From: Mucilaginibacter boryungensis
Lineage (GTDB): Bacteria; Bacteroidota; Bacteroidia; Sphingobacteriales; Sphingobacteriaceae
Assembly (NCBI RefSeq): GCF_015221995.1
Contig: NZ_JADFFM010000002.1
Location: forward strand, 434,001 to 498,000
Length of the DNA: 64,000 bases
Direction: 5' to 3'
The notes beneath the pieces were generated by a model. That model saw nothing but the letters and a program-made list of their open reading frames with translations, was not told the origin of the DNA and ran no database searches. Each line of letters starts with the position of its first letter. Position 1 is the stretch's first letter. Positions 36,873 to 43,908 of this stretch are shown one piece after another. Both the position numbers and the translations under genes were made by a program.

Positions 36873-39200
36873 TTACCGCGGTGGTTTTTGTTCCGTCTTT
36901 TCCGGTTCAATTGGCTGTGGTTGTTGCGTAGGTACAGCCGATGTATCTACCGGCGCCCAACTGCTGTCTACCTCACCACTGTCCCTGGCCATACGCGGCG
37001 ATGGGCAATTATACTCTTTAGTGATCTTAACAAAGGGTTTAGGGAACGGCCCATAGGTATAACCCGATTTTGGATCGGCATAAACCTTTTCCATAAAGGC
37101 GCCGAATATTGGCAATGCCGTGTGCGAACCTTCCCCACTTTCGCTGGAATTAAAGTGCACGCTCCTGTCATCTGCCCCCACCCATATGCCTGTCACCAGG
37201 TCCTTAGTAATGCCCATATACCAACCATCTACGTAATCGCTTGATGTACCGGTTTTGCCGCCTATCTGGTTATCTTTTTTCCAAAGCCCATTATATTCCC
37301 ACAGGGCTTGCGATGTACCACCTGGTTCCTCCATCCCGCCGCGGAACATGTACAGCATCAACCATGCTACTTCCGGGCTGATCACCTGCTCTTGTTTTAA
37401 TGTCCACTCGCCTACCACATTGCCCTGCTGGTCGGTAATTTTCGTTACCAGCAGCGGGTCTACCTTTTGGCCCTTGTTCAGGAAGGTGCTATAGGCCCGT
37501 ACCATTTCGTAAACTGAAACATCATTTGATCCCAGTGAAACCGACGGTATAGCTTTCAGCGGGCTTTCGATACCTACTTTATGCGCATAATCCACAATTT
37601 TATCCCAGCCAACTTTTTCTGTTACCTGTGCAGTAATACTGTTTACCGATTTACCCATAGCCCAGCGCAGCGACATATCCATATAACTGAACTTAAAATC
37701 GGCATTGTTGGGCGACCAGGTTTCTTGTTTACCATCATAGGTATAACTGATCGATACGGGCTTATCGGTAAACTTATCGCAGGGGGTGTAACCGTTATCC
37801 AGCGCGGTGAGATAAGCAAACGGCTTGAATGTACTACCAGCCTGGCGTTTAGCCTGATTGACGTGATCGTACTTAAAATATTTATAGTCTATCCCCCCTA
37901 TCCAAACTTTTATTTTTCCGGTTGATGGTTCCATGGTCATCATACCCGTGTTCAGCAATTTGGTATAATATTTTATAGAATCTACACTGCTTAGCACGGT
38001 ATCGCGCTCGCCGTGCCAGGTAAAAACCCGCATCTTCTTTTTAGCTTCGAAGTATTTATTTATCTGCACCGTATCGCCGTTGTACTTTTTATTAAGTACG
38101 GCATAAACCGGTAAACGTTGCTCAGCTTTCAGCAGAAAGTCTTTAATCTCCACACCCTTACTATCCCTCCATGGGTTTTTGTTACCCCAGATGCCATAAA
38201 AACGCCTTTGCAGCATTTTCATTTTCTCGGCTACGGCTTCCTCGGCATATTTTTGCAGGCGGCTATCTATGGTAGTATATATCTTCAGGCCATCCTCGTA
38301 CAGGTCGTAATCATTATCCTTGCACCATTTTTTCAGCCATTTCTCTACTGCCTGGCGCAGGTAACTATCGCCGGTCGATTCATTATCTACAAAACTCAGG
38401 TCGAGGCCCAGCGGTTTAGCCACATTGGCATCATATTCCTGTTTTTTCAGGTAACCATATTTCTCCATTTGTCCCAGCACGATGTTACGGCGCTGCAACG
38501 ACTTATCGGGATTATTAATAGGGTTATAGGTTGATGTTGCCTTCAGCATGCCTATTAGTGTTGCTGCTTCAGCGGGGTTCAGCACATCGGGGGTTTTATT
38601 GAAATATTTTAGCGATGCTGTTTTGATACCGAACGAATTATTGCCAAACGGTACCGTATTAAAATACATGGTCAGTATTTGCTGCTTATTATAAACGTGT
38701 TCAATTTTGTACGCCGTCAGCCATTCCTTTATCTTATACACTACGGTACGCAGTACCGGGATATGCCTGATGAGCCCCTGCGATTTCCTTTTACGGGTGC
38801 TGAACAGGTTTTTGCCCAATTGCTGTGTAATGGTACTGCCGCCACGCTTATCGCCTTTAGCGGTAGAAACCATACTGGTAAAAAAGCCATAGAAATCGAC
38901 CCCGCCATGTTTGTAAAAACGCACATCCTCTGTAGCGACTAATGCGTGTACCAGGTTGGGCGATATTTTATTGTATTCAACCGGCGAACGGTTCTCGTGA
39001 TAATACTTACCTATCAGGGTGCCATCTGAATAATAAACCTCACTGGCAACGGAGATAACGGGGTTTCTAATATCCTGCATATCAGGAGTATAACCAAACA
39101 GCCAAAGGAAATTAAGTTCGATGGCACAGAAAAACAGGATAACAAAATATATGAATATGGTGAAATACCGCAGGTATTTATTACTGATGCTTTTGAACAT
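36873..39200 (-). CDS. Penicillin-binding protein, class A (1A-type)
   Basis: A bifunctional peptidoglycan synthase of 775 residues from ATG 39200. One N-terminal transmembrane helix is followed by a GT51 glycosyltransferase domain (catalytic Glu91 in ATEDVRFYKHGG, and KRGGSTITQQLGKNLF). The transpeptidase domain has STFK with Ser456, SVNS and GGKTGTSSDYVDGW. The C-terminus is Pro/Gln-rich. The in-frame start at 39257 adds 19 residues and is less likely. It is monocistronic. mrcA-like naming applies by domain architecture. Confidence 0.96.
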   Translation of the reverse strand: MFKSISNKYLRYFTIFIYFVILFFCAIELNFLWLFGYTPDMQDIRNPVISVASEVYYSDGTLIGKYYHENRSPVEYNKISPNLVHALVATEDVRFYKHGGVDFYGFFTSMVSTAKGDKRGGSTITQQLGKNLFSTRKRKSQGLIRHIPVLRTVVYKIKEWLTAYKIEHVYNKQQILTMYFNTVPFGNNSFGIKTASLKYFNKTPDVLNPAEAATLIGMLKATSTYNPINNPDKSLQRRNIVLGQMEKYGYLKKQEYDANVAKPLGLDLSFVDNESTGDSYLRQAVEKWLKKWCKDNDYDLYEDGLKIYTTIDSRLQKYAEEAVAEKMKMLQRRFYGIWGNKNPWRDSKGVEIKDFLLKAEQRLPVYAVLNKKYNGDTVQINKYFEAKKKMRVFTWHGERDTVLSSVDSIKYYTKLLNTGMMTMEPSTGKIKVWIGGIDYKYFKYDHVNQAKRQAGSTFKPFAYLTALDNGYTPCDKFTDKPVSISYTYDGKQETWSPNNADFKFSYMDMSLRWAMGKSVNSITAQVTEKVGWDKIVDYAHKVGIESPLKAIPSVSLGSNDVSVYEMVRAYSTFLNKGQKVDPLLVTKITDQQGNVVGEWTLKQEQVISPEVAWLMLYMFRGGMEEPGGTSQALWEYNGLWKKDNQIGGKTGTSSDYVDGWYMGITKDLVTGIWVGADDRSVHFNSSESGEGSHTALPIFGAFMEKVYADPKSGYTYGPFPKPFVKITKEYNCPSPRMARDSGEVDSSWAPVDTSAVPTQQPQPIEPEKTEQKPPR

Positions 39201-39580
39201 GTGGTAAATATGGAAAATTATGCCGCTATAACCTAACAGCAGACACAAATTTAACAACGTAATTTTGAAAGCGGAATTGTGTTAGTATAATTTCAACCGT
39301 TTTAATCAAATTATACCTATTGCTACTTAATCTCACCAATTTACTATCCTTAAAAAGCTGAATAAGATCAATAATTATTTAGTCTTGATTTTTAGCGTTG
39401 AATTAAATCAATCTCTGCCAACCTGTCACCGTTCCGTCACATCCTATGACGATTTAATACGTTTTTTGACTTTTACCTTTTGACTTTCGACTTGAAAAAC
39501 TGCCATAATCACATTGGCACAGCCATTGTTAATATAGCTGTGTTAAGTAATTTATAAGTAAAGGAAAAAATCAATCATAT
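39201..39580. other. Regulatory gap between the PBP gene and dnaK
   Basis: About 380 AT-rich bases with no gene. It separates the divergent PBP gene and dnaK. Besides the sigma-54-like site it holds GTCACATCCTATGAC, an imperfect inverted repeat at about 39435-39449, and the short direct repeats TTTTGACTTTTACC and TTTTGACTTTCGAC. Confidence 0.6.
39514..39530 (+). promoter_or_regulatory. Sigma-54-like promoter upstream of dnaK
   Basis: TTGGCACAGCCATTGTT fits the sigma-54 pattern TGGCAC-N5-TTGC with one mismatch (TTGT for TTGC at the -12 element). It lies about 50 bases before dnaK. TGCCA (39501-39505) just upstream also pairs with TGGCA. No transcription data are available here. Confidence 0.45.
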
Positions 39581-41491
39581 ATGTCTAAAATCATTGGAAT
39601 CGACTTAGGAACAACAAACTCCTGTGTGGCAGTAATGGAAGGTAACGAACCCGTAGTTATTGCTAACAGCGAGGGTAAACGTACTACACCATCTGTAGTG
39701 GCGTTTGTGGATAATGGCGAGCGTAAAGTAGGCGACCCTGCTAAACGCCAGGCCATCACTAATCCAACCAAAACCGTTTCATCAATTAAACGCTTTATGG
39801 GTAACCAGTTTAACGAGGTTACTAAAGAAGCTGATCGCGTACCTTACAAAGTGGTTAAAGGTGATAACAACACCCCACGTGTAGAGATAGGCGACCGTAA
39901 ATATACGCCACAGGAAATTTCGGCTATGATACTTCAGAAAATGAAGAAAACTGCCGAGGATTTCTTAGGTCAGGAAGTTACGGAGGCGGTTATTACCGTA
40001 CCCGCTTACTTTAACGACGCGCAACGCCAGGCTACCAAAGAAGCCGGTGAAATTGCTGGCTTAACCGTTAAACGTATTATTAACGAGCCTACCGCTGCTG
40101 CCCTTGCCTATGGCCTGGACAAAGCACACAAGGATATGAAAATTGTGGTGTTTGACTGCGGTGGTGGTACACATGACGTTTCTGTACTGGAACTGGGTGA
40201 TGGTATCTTCGAAGTAAAATCAACCGATGGTGATACCCACCTTGGCGGTGACGACTTTGACCAGGTAATTATTGACTGGCTGGCAGACGAATTTAAAAAC
40301 GAAGAAGGCATTGACTTGCGTAAAGACCCAATGGGCTTACAACGTTTAAAAGAAGCTGCTGAGAAAGCTAAAATAGAATTATCAAGCACTACCCAAAGCG
40401 AAATTAACCTGCCATATGTTACGGCTGTTGATGGTATGCCTAAGCACTTGGTTAAATCATTAACCCGTGCAAAATTTGAGCAACTGGCCGATAGCCTGAT
40501 CAAACGCACTATCGAGCCTTGTAAAACTGCTTTGAAAAATGCAGGTTACAGCGTATCTGATATCGACGAGATCATCCTGGTAGGTGGTTCAACCCGTATC
40601 CCTGCTATACAGGATGCTGTACAGAAATTCTTTGGTAAAGCCCCATCAAAAGGTGTTAACCCTGATGAGGTAGTTGCTATTGGTGCAGCTATACAAGGTG
40701 GTGTATTAACCGGCGAGGTTAAAGACGTATTATTGTTAGACGTTACCCCGCTTTCGTTAGGTATTGAAACCATGGGTGGTGTAATGACCAAACTGATTGA
40801 AGCTAACACTACTATCCCAACAAAAAAATCGGAAGTATTCTCTACCGCTTCAGACAGTCAGCCATCTGTAGAGATACACATTTTACAGGGCGAGCGCCCA
40901 ATGGCTTCGGCAAACCGTACCATAGGCCGTTTCCACCTGGATGGTATACCACCAGCACCGCGCGGTGTTCCTCAAATTGAAGTAACCTTCGATATTGACG
41001 CTAACGGTATATTGCATGTATCTGCTAAAGATAAAGCGACCGGTAAAGAGCAGAAGATCCGTATCGAAGCTTCTTCAGGTTTAACTGAGGCCGAGATCAA
41101 GAAGATGAAAGATGAAGCTGAAGCAAATGCCGAAGCCGACAGGATAGCTAAAGAGGAAGTTGAAAAACTGAACTCAGCCGATGCCCTGATCTTCAGCACT
41201 GAAAAACAGTTGAAAGAGTACGGCGATAAAATCCCTGCTGACAAAAAAGCACCTATTGAAGAGGGTTTGAAAAAACTGAAGGATGCTTATGCTGCCAAAA
41301 ACCTGGCTGATATTGATGCTGCACAAACAGAACTAAATGCTTCATGGCAGGCTGCTTCTGAAGATATGTACAAAGCATCGGCAGAAGCCGGTCAACCAGG
41401 CCCTGATGCAGGTGCCGGTCAGCAAGCAGGTGCCAAGCCAGAGGGCGGCGCCGACAGCGTAACTGATGTTGACTTCGAAGAAGTAAAATAA
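39581..41491 (+). CDS. dnaK: Chaperone protein DnaK (Hsp70)
   Basis: A 636-residue Hsp70. The nucleotide-binding domain starts [18 protein letters not shown] and contains the phosphate loop [15 protein letters not shown] and [12 protein letters not shown]. The EF..AGVLTGEV-like linker region is followed by [11 protein letters not shown] and the substrate-binding domain. The C-terminus ends DFEEVK, the usual co-chaperone tail. grpE and dnaJ are not adjacent. It is monocistronic, ending at a strong terminator. Confidence 0.98.
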
Positions 41492-41512: not shown

Positions 41513-41546
41513 AAAGCCCCGCCGGATTTTTCCGGCGGGGCTTTTT
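41513..41546 (+). terminator. Intrinsic terminator of dnaK
   Basis: AAAGCCCCGCCGGA / TCCGGCGGGGCTTT is a perfect 14-bp stem with a four-T loop and T-rich tail, 21 bases after the dnaK stop. Confidence 0.95.
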
Positions 41547-41560
41547 GATTGTATATCTTT

Positions 41561-41644
41561 GTCATTGCGAGCGGCAGCGTGGCAATCTCGTAGTACGCAA
41601 ATCATACTACGAGATTGCCACGTCGCTACGCTCCTCGCAATGAC
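41561..41644. repeat. Dispersed palindromic repeat, copy 2 (complete)
   Basis: An 84-base element with outer arms GTCATTGCGAG / CTCGCAATGAC. Its inner arms are GTGGCAATCTCGTAGTA / TACTACGAGATTGCCAC around nine bases. The right part matches the copy at 21560-21590. It lies between dnaK and the GH31 gene. No coding potential is seen inside it. Confidence 0.85.
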
Positions 41645-41649
41645 AAAAA

Positions 41650-43908
41650 TTAAAAAGCAATAACCATCTCATCCCTTAATAACTCCACCACCTTATCCTT
41701 CATCTTCTCAAAGCCATGCCAAACAAAACGCACCTTACTAAATCTCGATTCAAATCTCCCTTCAACAACCGATAAAACCACCTGCTTCTTCCTTGGGTCG
41801 AAGCTAATCTCGCGCTTATAATAACTACCCTGCTCGTAATCATAACTAACACCGTCGTCCTCATAATAGGTGAATGATGTAGCTTGCTTGCCATTCCAAA
41901 TGTGAAGCTGCAAAACGCCGTCACCTGTCTCGTTTGTATTTTGCACTACGCTTTGCATAGGAATAATGGCGCCCGCTTTTACAAACACGGGAAGATCGGT
42001 CAACAGCGCCTCTGCTTTAACCTCTTTGCCACCATTAATTTTTTTATCAGTGCTCAAGCGGTACCATTCGCCGGGGGGCATGTAAACTTTAATGGCACGT
42101 TCGGTACTGGCTACCGGTGCCACCAAAATGTTATCGCCAAACATGAACTGGTTTTGATAGATATGTTCGTACACAATTTCGTCAAACGGATATTGAATAG
42201 CCAGCGTGCGGTTAATTGGTAACCCTGTTTGGTGCGATTGATAGAAGGACGAATAAATGTATGGTAGCAATTTATAGCGTTGCTCAATATCTTTTTTAAT
42301 GATCTTCTCGTTTTGTTTACCCCAGCGCCATGGCTCGCGCATAGCGGTATCTATCATGGCATGGTTACGGAACATGGGGGTGTAAACACCAAGCGAATTC
42401 CAGCGTACCATTAATTCGGGGGTGGGGTTGCCGCTAAAGCCCCCTATATCAACACCGGTGAATGCTACCCCGGTTATGCCCAAACTATTTACCAGACGGC
42501 AGCCCAGCAACATATGCGCATCGTTAGCCGTATTATCACCCGTCCACACCGCCGAATAACGCTGTATACCGGCATAAGCAGCCCGGGTGAGCACAAAGGG
42601 CCGTTGGCCTTGTAAAAGATGTTTAGTGCCCTTATAAGTACCCCGCGACATTTGCATACCATAAGCATTCCGTACCTCTGGCATATAATGCTCGCCAAAC
42701 TTCACCATATTGGGAATATTCTGTCCCCAGGCGGCAGGTTCATTCATATCGTTCCAAAAACCTGCCACGCCGGGTTCTGTCAGCGCACTGAACGATTTAC
42801 CCCACCAGTCGCGCACTTTAGCATCGTAAAAATTAGGGAAGTGGCAGCGTCCGGGCCATACCTCGCCAATATATTTTTCGCCATTGGGATAAGTAGCAAA
42901 GTAGTCGTTTGCTACTCCTTCATCATATTGTTTGTAGCCTTCCTCTATTTTAATGCCGGGGTCGACAATAGTTACTAACCTGAAGCCCATCGCTTTTAGT
43001 TCATCTATCAATCCTTTCGGATCGGGAAAAGTCTTCTTATCCCAGGTGAATATTTTATAGCCGTCCATATAATCGATATCGCAGTACAACACATCGGCCG
43101 GGATGTTGCATTTGCGGAAGTTGCGGGCTATGTCCAGCAGTTCACCGGCGCTCATATAGCTCCAGCGACATTGCTGGTAGCCCAGGCTCCAAAGGGGCGG
43201 CATTTCCATCCTGCCAGTCAGCCAGGTATAATCTTTTATAATTTCGGCCACACCCTGCGCACCAAAGAAGTAATAATTCATGTCGCCGCCATCGGCGCCA
43301 AGCCAATACATGCTATGGTCGGTACTGGCGCCAAAATCGAAATAGGAACGATGGGTATTATCCAGGAAAAAGCCGTAAGTAAGGCCGCTATGTAAGCCCA
43401 CAAAAAACGGGAAGGTTTTATACAAAGGGTCGGATTTGGCATGATAATCAACCGCGTCGGTATTCCAGTTTATATAACTGCTGCCACGCCGGTCAAGGTT
43501 CCCGGTTTTCTCGCCCAGACCAATAAAACGTTCGCCCTTAAACATACGGCGATAGTTGGTTACGCTTTCTCCCTGCCAAACAGTACCAAAGCGTTCATCA
43601 TCGCCACTTAACAAAATGCCATCGGGGGTGTAAAAGTTAAATCGTAGCGGTGCTTTGGTGATACGAAGTTCTAATTCGCCGGTATAAATGGATAGCTCAT
43701 CCGCCGATTCATCATATCTGAGATTGCCTTCAGGTGATTGTATGACCGCGAATGAATGATCGGTGGTGTTAAAATGCTTACTGATATTTACCCGGATAAT
43801 GGTTGGCGAGTAAACCCAAACCCTGGCTTCTGCCTGCGGGGTTTTTAGAATAATATGATTTTCTTTCTGACTGATATGCTGGGTGTTTCCTGATAGTTCG
43901 ACTTGCAT
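41650..43908 (-). CDS. Glycoside hydrolase family 31 alpha-glucosidase
   Basis: From ATG 43908 the protein has 752 residues, without a signal peptide. The GH31 (alpha/beta)8 barrel carries the nucleophile in GFWNDMNEP (Asp387) and the acid/base in WTGDNTANDAHM. A beta-sandwich N-terminal domain and the C-terminal beta domains complete the usual layout. It releases glucose from the ends of alpha-glucans or related oligosaccharides. The open frame back to 44025 adds 39 unlikely residues. It is not near the susCD pair. The dnaK terminator and repeat lie just beyond its stop. Confidence 0.94.
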   Translation of the reverse strand: MQVELSGNTQHISQKENHIILKTPQAEARVWVYSPTIIRVNISKHFNTTDHSFAVIQSPEGNLRYDESADELSIYTGELELRITKAPLRFNFYTPDGILLSGDDERFGTVWQGESVTNYRRMFKGERFIGLGEKTGNLDRRGSSYINWNTDAVDYHAKSDPLYKTFPFFVGLHSGLTYGFFLDNTHRSYFDFGASTDHSMYWLGADGGDMNYYFFGAQGVAEIIKDYTWLTGRMEMPPLWSLGYQQCRWSYMSAGELLDIARNFRKCNIPADVLYCDIDYMDGYKIFTWDKKTFPDPKGLIDELKAMGFRLVTIVDPGIKIEEGYKQYDEGVANDYFATYPNGEKYIGEVWPGRCHFPNFYDAKVRDWWGKSFSALTEPGVAGFWNDMNEPAAWGQNIPNMVKFGEHYMPEVRNAYGMQMSRGTYKGTKHLLQGQRPFVLTRAAYAGIQRYSAVWTGDNTANDAHMLLGCRLVNSLGITGVAFTGVDIGGFSGNPTPELMVRWNSLGVYTPMFRNHAMIDTAMREPWRWGKQNEKIIKKDIEQRYKLLPYIYSSFYQSHQTGLPINRTLAIQYPFDEIVYEHIYQNQFMFGDNILVAPVASTERAIKVYMPPGEWYRLSTDKKINGGKEVKAEALLTDLPVFVKAGAIIPMQSVVQNTNETGDGVLQLHIWNGKQATSFTYYEDDGVSYDYEQGSYYKREISFDPRKKQVVLSVVEGRFESRFSKVRFVWHGFEKMKDKVVELLRDEMVIAF

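Follow-up and report, generated by a model that had tools for sequence, protein, structure and literature searches.

The dnaK gene of Mucilaginibacter boryungensis is preceded by a conserved box with the -24/-12 spacing of sigma-54 promoters, and sigma-54 control through this box is strongly supported by comparison of upstream regions. Similar boxes before other chaperone genes, phased upstream elements and a widespread candidate activator extend the finding from one promoter to what appears to be enhancer-like, sigma-54-type chaperone control across the class, a view that the sequence comparisons support. The whole explanation, a sigma-54-dependent dnaK promoter with an upstream enhancer, a receiver-less activator and a leaky -12 element, is in our judgement probably correct.

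The -24/-12 box before dnaK and other chaperone genes

The window, meaning the whole stretch of 64,000 nucleotides that was analysed (G000:C2:434001-498000), belongs to an assembly of 4.88 Mb. The gene was identified as dnaK by a profile search, in which NF001413 and TIGR02350 scored above their cut-offs. The features of the region are as follows.

36873..39257, minus strand: divergent gene whose product is a penicillin-binding protein carrying both a transglycosylase and a transpeptidase domain; its start codon is uncertain
39416..39428, plus strand: paired upstream element TGCCA-ACC-TGTCA (TGHCA-N3-TGHCA), enhancer-like, 99 nt ahead of TGG in the -24 box
39500..39505, plus strand: proximal box CTGCCA, upstream arm of an inverted repeat, 14 nt before TGG
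39514..39530, plus strand: sigma-54-type promoter TTGGCACAGCCATTGTT; GG at 39516-39517 is the -24 element, G at 39528 and T at 39529 the -12 element (T replaces C)
39541, plus strand: expected transcript start, approximate, predicted from sigma-54 geometry by counting from -12 at 39529
39581..41491, plus strand: dnaK, 636 aa
41513..41547, plus strand: hairpin (inverted repeat) followed by a T run, likely the dnaK terminator, as read from the sequence

The initial annotation had described a sigma-54-like site with T at the last -12 position, overlapped by TGCCA-N9-TGGCA, and the letters agree with both statements. TGCCA occupies 39501-39505 and TGGCA 39515-39519, and TTGGCACAGCCATTGTT, which ends 50 nt ahead of dnaK, differs from TGGCACRNNNNTTGCW by a single mismatch, T for C at 39529. 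GG-N10-G is the signature of sigma-54 promoters, and the window displays it with GG at -24, G at -12 and exactly ten bases between them. Near-matches to TGGCACRNNNNTTGCW with at most two mismatches number 19 in the window, no excess over the 20.4 expected. The refined pattern TTGGCAYANNNNTTGWT has one match in 64 kb against 0.03 expected, a rarity that depends on the relatives from which the pattern was derived. In the genome itself the promoter pattern was found eight times, compared with nine in a reversed control (16 versus 15 in a second count), and in the genus 68 times versus 45, a modest excess (41 genomes, summed by hand). The signal is carried by position before genes, not by the number of matches, and the dnaK box counts as more than chance because it is conserved in relatives, not because a near-match is rare.

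Conservation was assessed in 80 upstream regions, made up of the window and the fetched loci, of which 79 of 80 could be used (L079 has only 25 nt upstream). The loci are mostly labelled Mucilaginibacter, and the remainder Daejeonella, Desertivirga, Sphingobacterium, Sphingobacteriaceae or Bacteroidetes bacterium. Absence of the motif from relatives would count against such a promoter and was looked for; TGGCA-N6-TTG is present within 130 nt of the dnaK start codon in all 80 regions, at 53-83 nt ahead of it. Counted from the T of TGG, positions 0-4, 6, 11-13 and 15 are invariant in 80/80, and between one base before TGG and position 17 there are 12 columns with an identical base in at least 79 of the sequences. 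A second conserved block, CTGCCAAA, lies 15 to 8 nt ahead of TGG, and the columns farther upstream drift (profile covering 45 nt ahead of the T of TGG and 34 nt past it). The upstream half of the inverted repeat is found at the identical place in 68 regions, as TGCCA in 65 and TGACA in three. Another inverted repeat, CACAGCCAT/ATAGCTGTG, overlaps the promoter with arms at 39518-39526 and 39534-39542 and seemed to show compensation in a few relatives. It was rejected, because swapped pairs do as well as a sequence's own pairs (449 of 2000 permutations reach the mean).

Since dnaK is presumably required at all times, it could be argued that a housekeeping promoter supplies most of its expression, or that HrcA controls it, and that the box adds little. 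The Bacteroidetes -7 box, TAnnTTTG, argues otherwise; it occurs within the final 300 nt of the upstream region in 5 of the 80 sequences versus 10.2 expected from shuffles. The CIRCE inverted repeat, in its commonly quoted form, is matched with at least 5 mismatches in 18 in every one of the 80, and no other block is as conserved within the profiled columns, which run to 34 nt past the T of TGG. We regard this alternative as very unlikely. A sigma-54 route to dnaK, as put forward in the initial annotation, is favoured by the GG-N10-G spacing, the presence of rpoN and the motif in relatives. It would act on the same kind of target genes as sigma-32 and HrcA/CIRCE heat-shock control, with a different type of promoter and no CIRCE-like site before dnaK in the 80 sequences.

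The class-wide comparison drew on 138 genomes, in which dnaK had 133 matches, 30 of them with a locus; 60 of the other 103 were fetched, picked by family and genus before reading. Of the 90 dnaK loci read, 30 are in the class, including one (G139) in the same genus. In a spacing scan, every GG[CT][AG] located 115 to 40 nt before the gene served as anchor, chosen blind to the -12 position. A G is found exactly at GG-N10 before dnaK in 30/30 class genomes, representing nine families, with the next best spacing found in 13; before groES in 26/30 (next best 11); and before clpB in 14/28 (next best 7), the other half lacking it. The groES and clpB sets are the class dnaK genomes with G000 in place of G135; two of these 30 have no clpB match and G077 has two, giving 29 loci in 28 genomes. 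The same signature precedes groES, clpB, hsp20 and lon in the genome of the window; a look at other heat-shock genes had been proposed as a check in the initial annotation. The scan was run after a matrix built from the 80 dnaK sites had been applied, which at p≤0.05 detects dnaK of families f2-f9 in 21/26 cases and only 11/30 groES and 3/29 clpB sites; it is weak on the latter two because the mid-box sequence differs by gene. In other classes only 9/60 genomes have the dnaK motif at p≤0.05, perhaps partly since dnaK closely follows another gene there, as judged by eye. Several outgroup families (L202-L209; f15 and f19) have dnaK directly preceded by what appears by eye to be the tail end of a gene for a small heat-shock protein, with which it may be co-transcribed from a promoter further upstream.

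The pattern TTGGCAYNNNNNTTGNW has 16 matches in the genome of the window, six of which are outside the open frames considered and at most 300 nt before one. Three of the six belong to heat-shock or protease genes, namely dnaK, hsp20 and lon; the others precede pckA, a response-regulator gene and a gene whose product gives a weak carboxypeptidase-regulatory-like match. The pckA site, TTGGCATTTGTATTGCT (L090 1501-1517), has the canonical C at -12, lies about 30 nt before the phosphoenolpyruvate carboxykinase gene and has no paired element; sigma-54 control of gluconeogenesis is a possible reading of it. The response-regulator site, TTGGCATGCCTATTGCA (L092 1501-1517), also has C at -12 and lies about 15 nt before a gene for a 123-aa receiver-domain protein.

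The C of the -12 element is absent from dnaK throughout the 80 sequences, where A occurs in 39, T in 41 (including the window) and C in none. The dnaK sites of the 30 class genomes have A in 26, T in four and no C, a second, chance anchor with GC in G112 being left out of the count. By contrast, groES retains the canonical GC in 9/26 sites (a chance anchor in G139 left out; Fisher p 0.0004 against dnaK in nearly the same genomes), and the loss is thus dnaK's more than the lineage's. The missing C is what would be expected if the box were a look-alike site of another sigma factor or regulator. We consider this the least likely of the readings, given the exact GG-N10-G spacing, the full GC at those groES sites and at dnaK of a few genomes of other classes (G054, G133), and the RpoN box of the encoded sigma-54, ARRTVAKYR, which equals that of the solved RpoN chains aligned with it.

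In the sections of PMC4551910 that bear on the -12 C, this base is 96% conserved among sigma-54 promoters, though not obligatory, and keeps basal transcription in check, bypass of the activator is tied to a less conserved -12 C, and a sigma-54 variant without region I gives four times higher output from one promoter at 42 °C. The missing -12 C may thus give leaky basal expression of an indispensable chaperone.

The paired upstream element and its helical phase

A pair of boxes, TGHCA-N3-TGHCA, is found upstream of the dnaK box in 80/80 sequences (0.34 expected from first-order Markov resampling, the null used for all pair counts; other spacings at most 3). The pattern was spotted by eye in these sequences, and the class and groES sets provide an independent test. 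In these, the strict pair precedes dnaK in 20/30 genomes (null 0.14) and groES in 8/30 (null 0.09); it is absent before dnaK in the other 10, including all six of family f2, and before groES in the other 22. At clpB the strict form is seen at 1 of 29 loci and a relaxed form at 13 of 29 (null 0.55), and hsp20 and lon of the genome of the window have no strict pair. The pair at 39416-39428 is the sole match in the window on both strands. Its weight comes from place and conservation, since 64 kb yields one match by chance (1.0 expected). Across 602 kb of the 79 loci, 79 matches fall within 250 nt upstream of the promoter. Another 17 lie outside that interval (both strands counted), and 13 of them arise when the same sites, or the promoter-proximal repeat, are read in reverse.

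The distance between pair and promoter varies in steps of about 10.5 bp. In the 80 sequences it is 76-80, 87-90, 98-101 or 121 nt, with nothing between, and a quickly built dnaK tree, which leaves 19 of its 77 inner branches open, calls for no fewer than 12 changes between these distance classes. The class dnaK distances are 25, 35, 36, 56, 67, 78, 79, 89 and 100 nt (for G162, whose two pairs overlap, the value is that of the nearer one), and those of groES 56, 66, 67, 77, 87, 88 and 110 nt. The 18 distinct family/gene/distance values are in phase to a degree that 0/20000 random sets equal, in tests that take the distances as independent though families share ancestry. Single boxes between pair and promoter, 231 in all, have a vector strength of 0.75 at 10.5 bp, or 0.70 without the proximal box (values given with no null). 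The TGCCA arm at 14 nt, present in 68/80, is the nearest single box of this series. The nested inverted repeat of the initial annotation is present, as stated, but not isolated; it is the promoter-proximal member of a series of helically phased boxes. The simplest reading of the phasing is that a protein binds on the face of the helix occupied by the polymerase. Spread in helical steps over 25 to 121 nt, these distances would also, if the pair is an enhancer, form a natural collection for studying how a sigma-54 activator reaches the polymerase.

The promoter could be of the sigma-54 type and the pair nonetheless bind another protein, such as a repressor or nucleoid protein, with the activator acting elsewhere. 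Of the 20 class genomes in which dnaK has a pair, eight have it just 25 nt before TGG, a position unusually close for a remote, looping activator and one at which a bound protein could hinder the polymerase. All six genomes of family f2 possess rpoN, the activator and GG-N10-G before dnaK, yet lack both the strict pair and linkage of the activator to groES. Movement of the pair over this range in whole helical turns fits contact with the polymerase better than blocking, and enhancer-binding activators are the known partners of sigma-54. We consider binding by another protein unlikely, although it deserves attention, and favour an enhancer function of the pair.

RpoN and a candidate activator

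The initial annotation had named rpoN and its activators as genes to be sought, and the genome holds both. The encoded RpoN has all three domains, for activator interaction, core binding and DNA binding, and PF00158, the activator domain, has five strong matches. A match to rpoN was found in 80/80 genomes tested from the 138 phylum genomes and in 230/237 class genomes, one of them of only 0.49 Mb. The seven class genomes without a match are all assemblies of at least 170 contigs; four of them have a same-genus genome with rpoN, and six retain the activator described below. The 237 genomes thus offer no group free of rpoN that could serve as a negative control.

One of the five proteins is a candidate for the activator of the chaperone promoters. 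Encoded at G000:C1:60187-61425, it has no receiver domain; PF00158 begins at residue 12 (228.9 bits) and is followed by a lid, a linker and HTH_8 (44.9 bits), with about 110 residues separating the AAA+ lid from the helix-turn-helix. The loop at the GAFTGA position reads GAYTGA, and among 41 orthologues it is GSFTGA in 22, GAFTGA in 15, GAYTGA in two and an FTSA form in two. The helix-turn-helix LGIS[EQ]RTLYRK is found in 41/41 and is of the Fis type. The protein scores under the cut-off of all 25 NCBIfam families listed.

An orthologue is present in 30/30 class genomes with at least 57% identity, measured in G077 over just 310 residues, against at most 49% for the next paralogue, and in 68/69 genomes of sixty families with at least 50%. 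G155 belongs to both sets, so that the combined count is 97/98; the sole miss, G327, is a fragmented assembly that is 80% complete. In a first look at G155, this orthologue was the one candidate activator in all. Coordinates compared by eye place the gene within 4 kb upstream of groES, in the same orientation, in 22/30 genomes and away from groES in eight, namely the six of family f2, G052 and G077. What ties the activator to the pair, to which it may bind, is limited to linkage, ubiquity and the helical phase.

The 0.49-Mb genome (G199; 22% G+C in the stretch read) retains both rpoN and the activator. There (L324 8555-11093) a gene that we take to be miaB-like is followed by the activator gene, the order seen in the genome of the window. 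The gene after the activator in L004 (254-2034) presumably resembles lptE. An operon of miaB, activator and lptE may lead towards groES, and co-control of chaperones with the outer membrane is possible.

Proposed mechanism, known systems and the surroundings of dnaK

The order of events would be as follows. RNA polymerase with RpoN binds the -24/-12 box at 39514-39530, a step strongly supported by the sequence. A regulator would bind TGHCA-N3-TGHCA about 100 nt upstream, with single boxes between, on the polymerase's face of the helix, which the sequence likewise supports. This regulator is probably the receiver-less enhancer-binding protein encoded upstream of groES (G000:C1:60187-61425), whose AAA+ ring would open the complex. 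Because it has no receiver domain, it may be controlled as PspF is, through a partner, or by chaperone supply, and misfolding or heat would then raise dnaK, groESL, clpB, hsp20 and lon. Loss of the -12 C would leave dnaK with a basal, partly activator-independent output. A more far-reaching version is that Bacteroidia conduct heat shock through sigma-54 and one nearly universal receiver-less activator on phased TGHCA pairs, while the -12 loss lets heat raise dnaK directly by activator-independent opening, the promoter being part of the thermosensor. We put this forward as a tentative possibility.

The arrangement resembles the canonical sigma-54/enhancer systems of the NtrC, PspF and NifA type in its GG-N10-G box, in rpoN and an AAA+ activator with a Fis-type helix-turn-helix, in helical phasing, and in a pair of boxes that in the window lies about 100 nt ahead of the promoter. 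It differs from them in the replacement of the dnaK -12 C by A or T, in its core chaperone targets, and in a candidate activator without a receiver domain that falls below the NCBIfam cut-offs. PspF of the E. coli phage-shock system is also a receiver-less activator, and the candidate scores 260.5 bits to TIGR02974; this is below the cut-off of 443.55 bits, as is a second score of 217.4 against 529, and the segment of about 110 residues ahead of the helix-turn-helix sets the candidate apart from PspF. The neighbourhood of pspF includes pspA, whereas the neighbours of the candidate are miaB and groES.

A link between sigma-54 and the chaperones of Bacteroidota has already been published as a prediction by Carrera-Reyna et al. 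(2025, PMC12316311), in a computational survey. In the parts of that paper compared here, predicted sigma-54 targets enriched in Bacteroidota and Planctomycetota include GroEL, GroES, IbpA, GrpE, DnaJ, DnaK and proteases, the same kind of chaperone and protease targets as found here, and grpE and groES of named Bacteroidota are called sigma-54-dependent with citation of a Blattabacterium paper. Those parts assign no activator and describe no enhancer site, phasing or change at the dnaK -12 position. Sigma-54 activators in general are treated in PMC7175178, in the portion consulted. The main text of a network paper on Bacteroides thetaiotaomicron (PMC12596196) returned neither dnaK nor groE as search terms. 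A literature search that covered few subscription journals found no publication naming the activator, the paired element, the phasing or the -12 change, and little on control of core chaperones in Bacteroidota was found in searchable publications. No counterpart was thus found in print for the enhancer-like element and its phasing, for the candidate activator or for the loss of the -12 C.

If the proposal is true, a large bacterial class runs its basic stress response on an ATP-driven, enhancer-dependent sigma-54 machine, which would help to explain the survival of rpoN and the activator in a 0.49-Mb genome. Both the candidate activator gene and the candidate site on the DNA are open to direct testing.

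The surroundings of dnaK display further features. DnaK of the window has a variant phosphate loop; the same string occurs in 32 of the 80 sequences, and the other 48 are outside the search pattern. Between dnaK and the next gene, a perfect 18-bp inverted repeat with a 9-nt loop (41578-41622) is flanked by longer imperfect arms at 41542-41571 and 41634-41663, and looks like a dispersed palindromic element.
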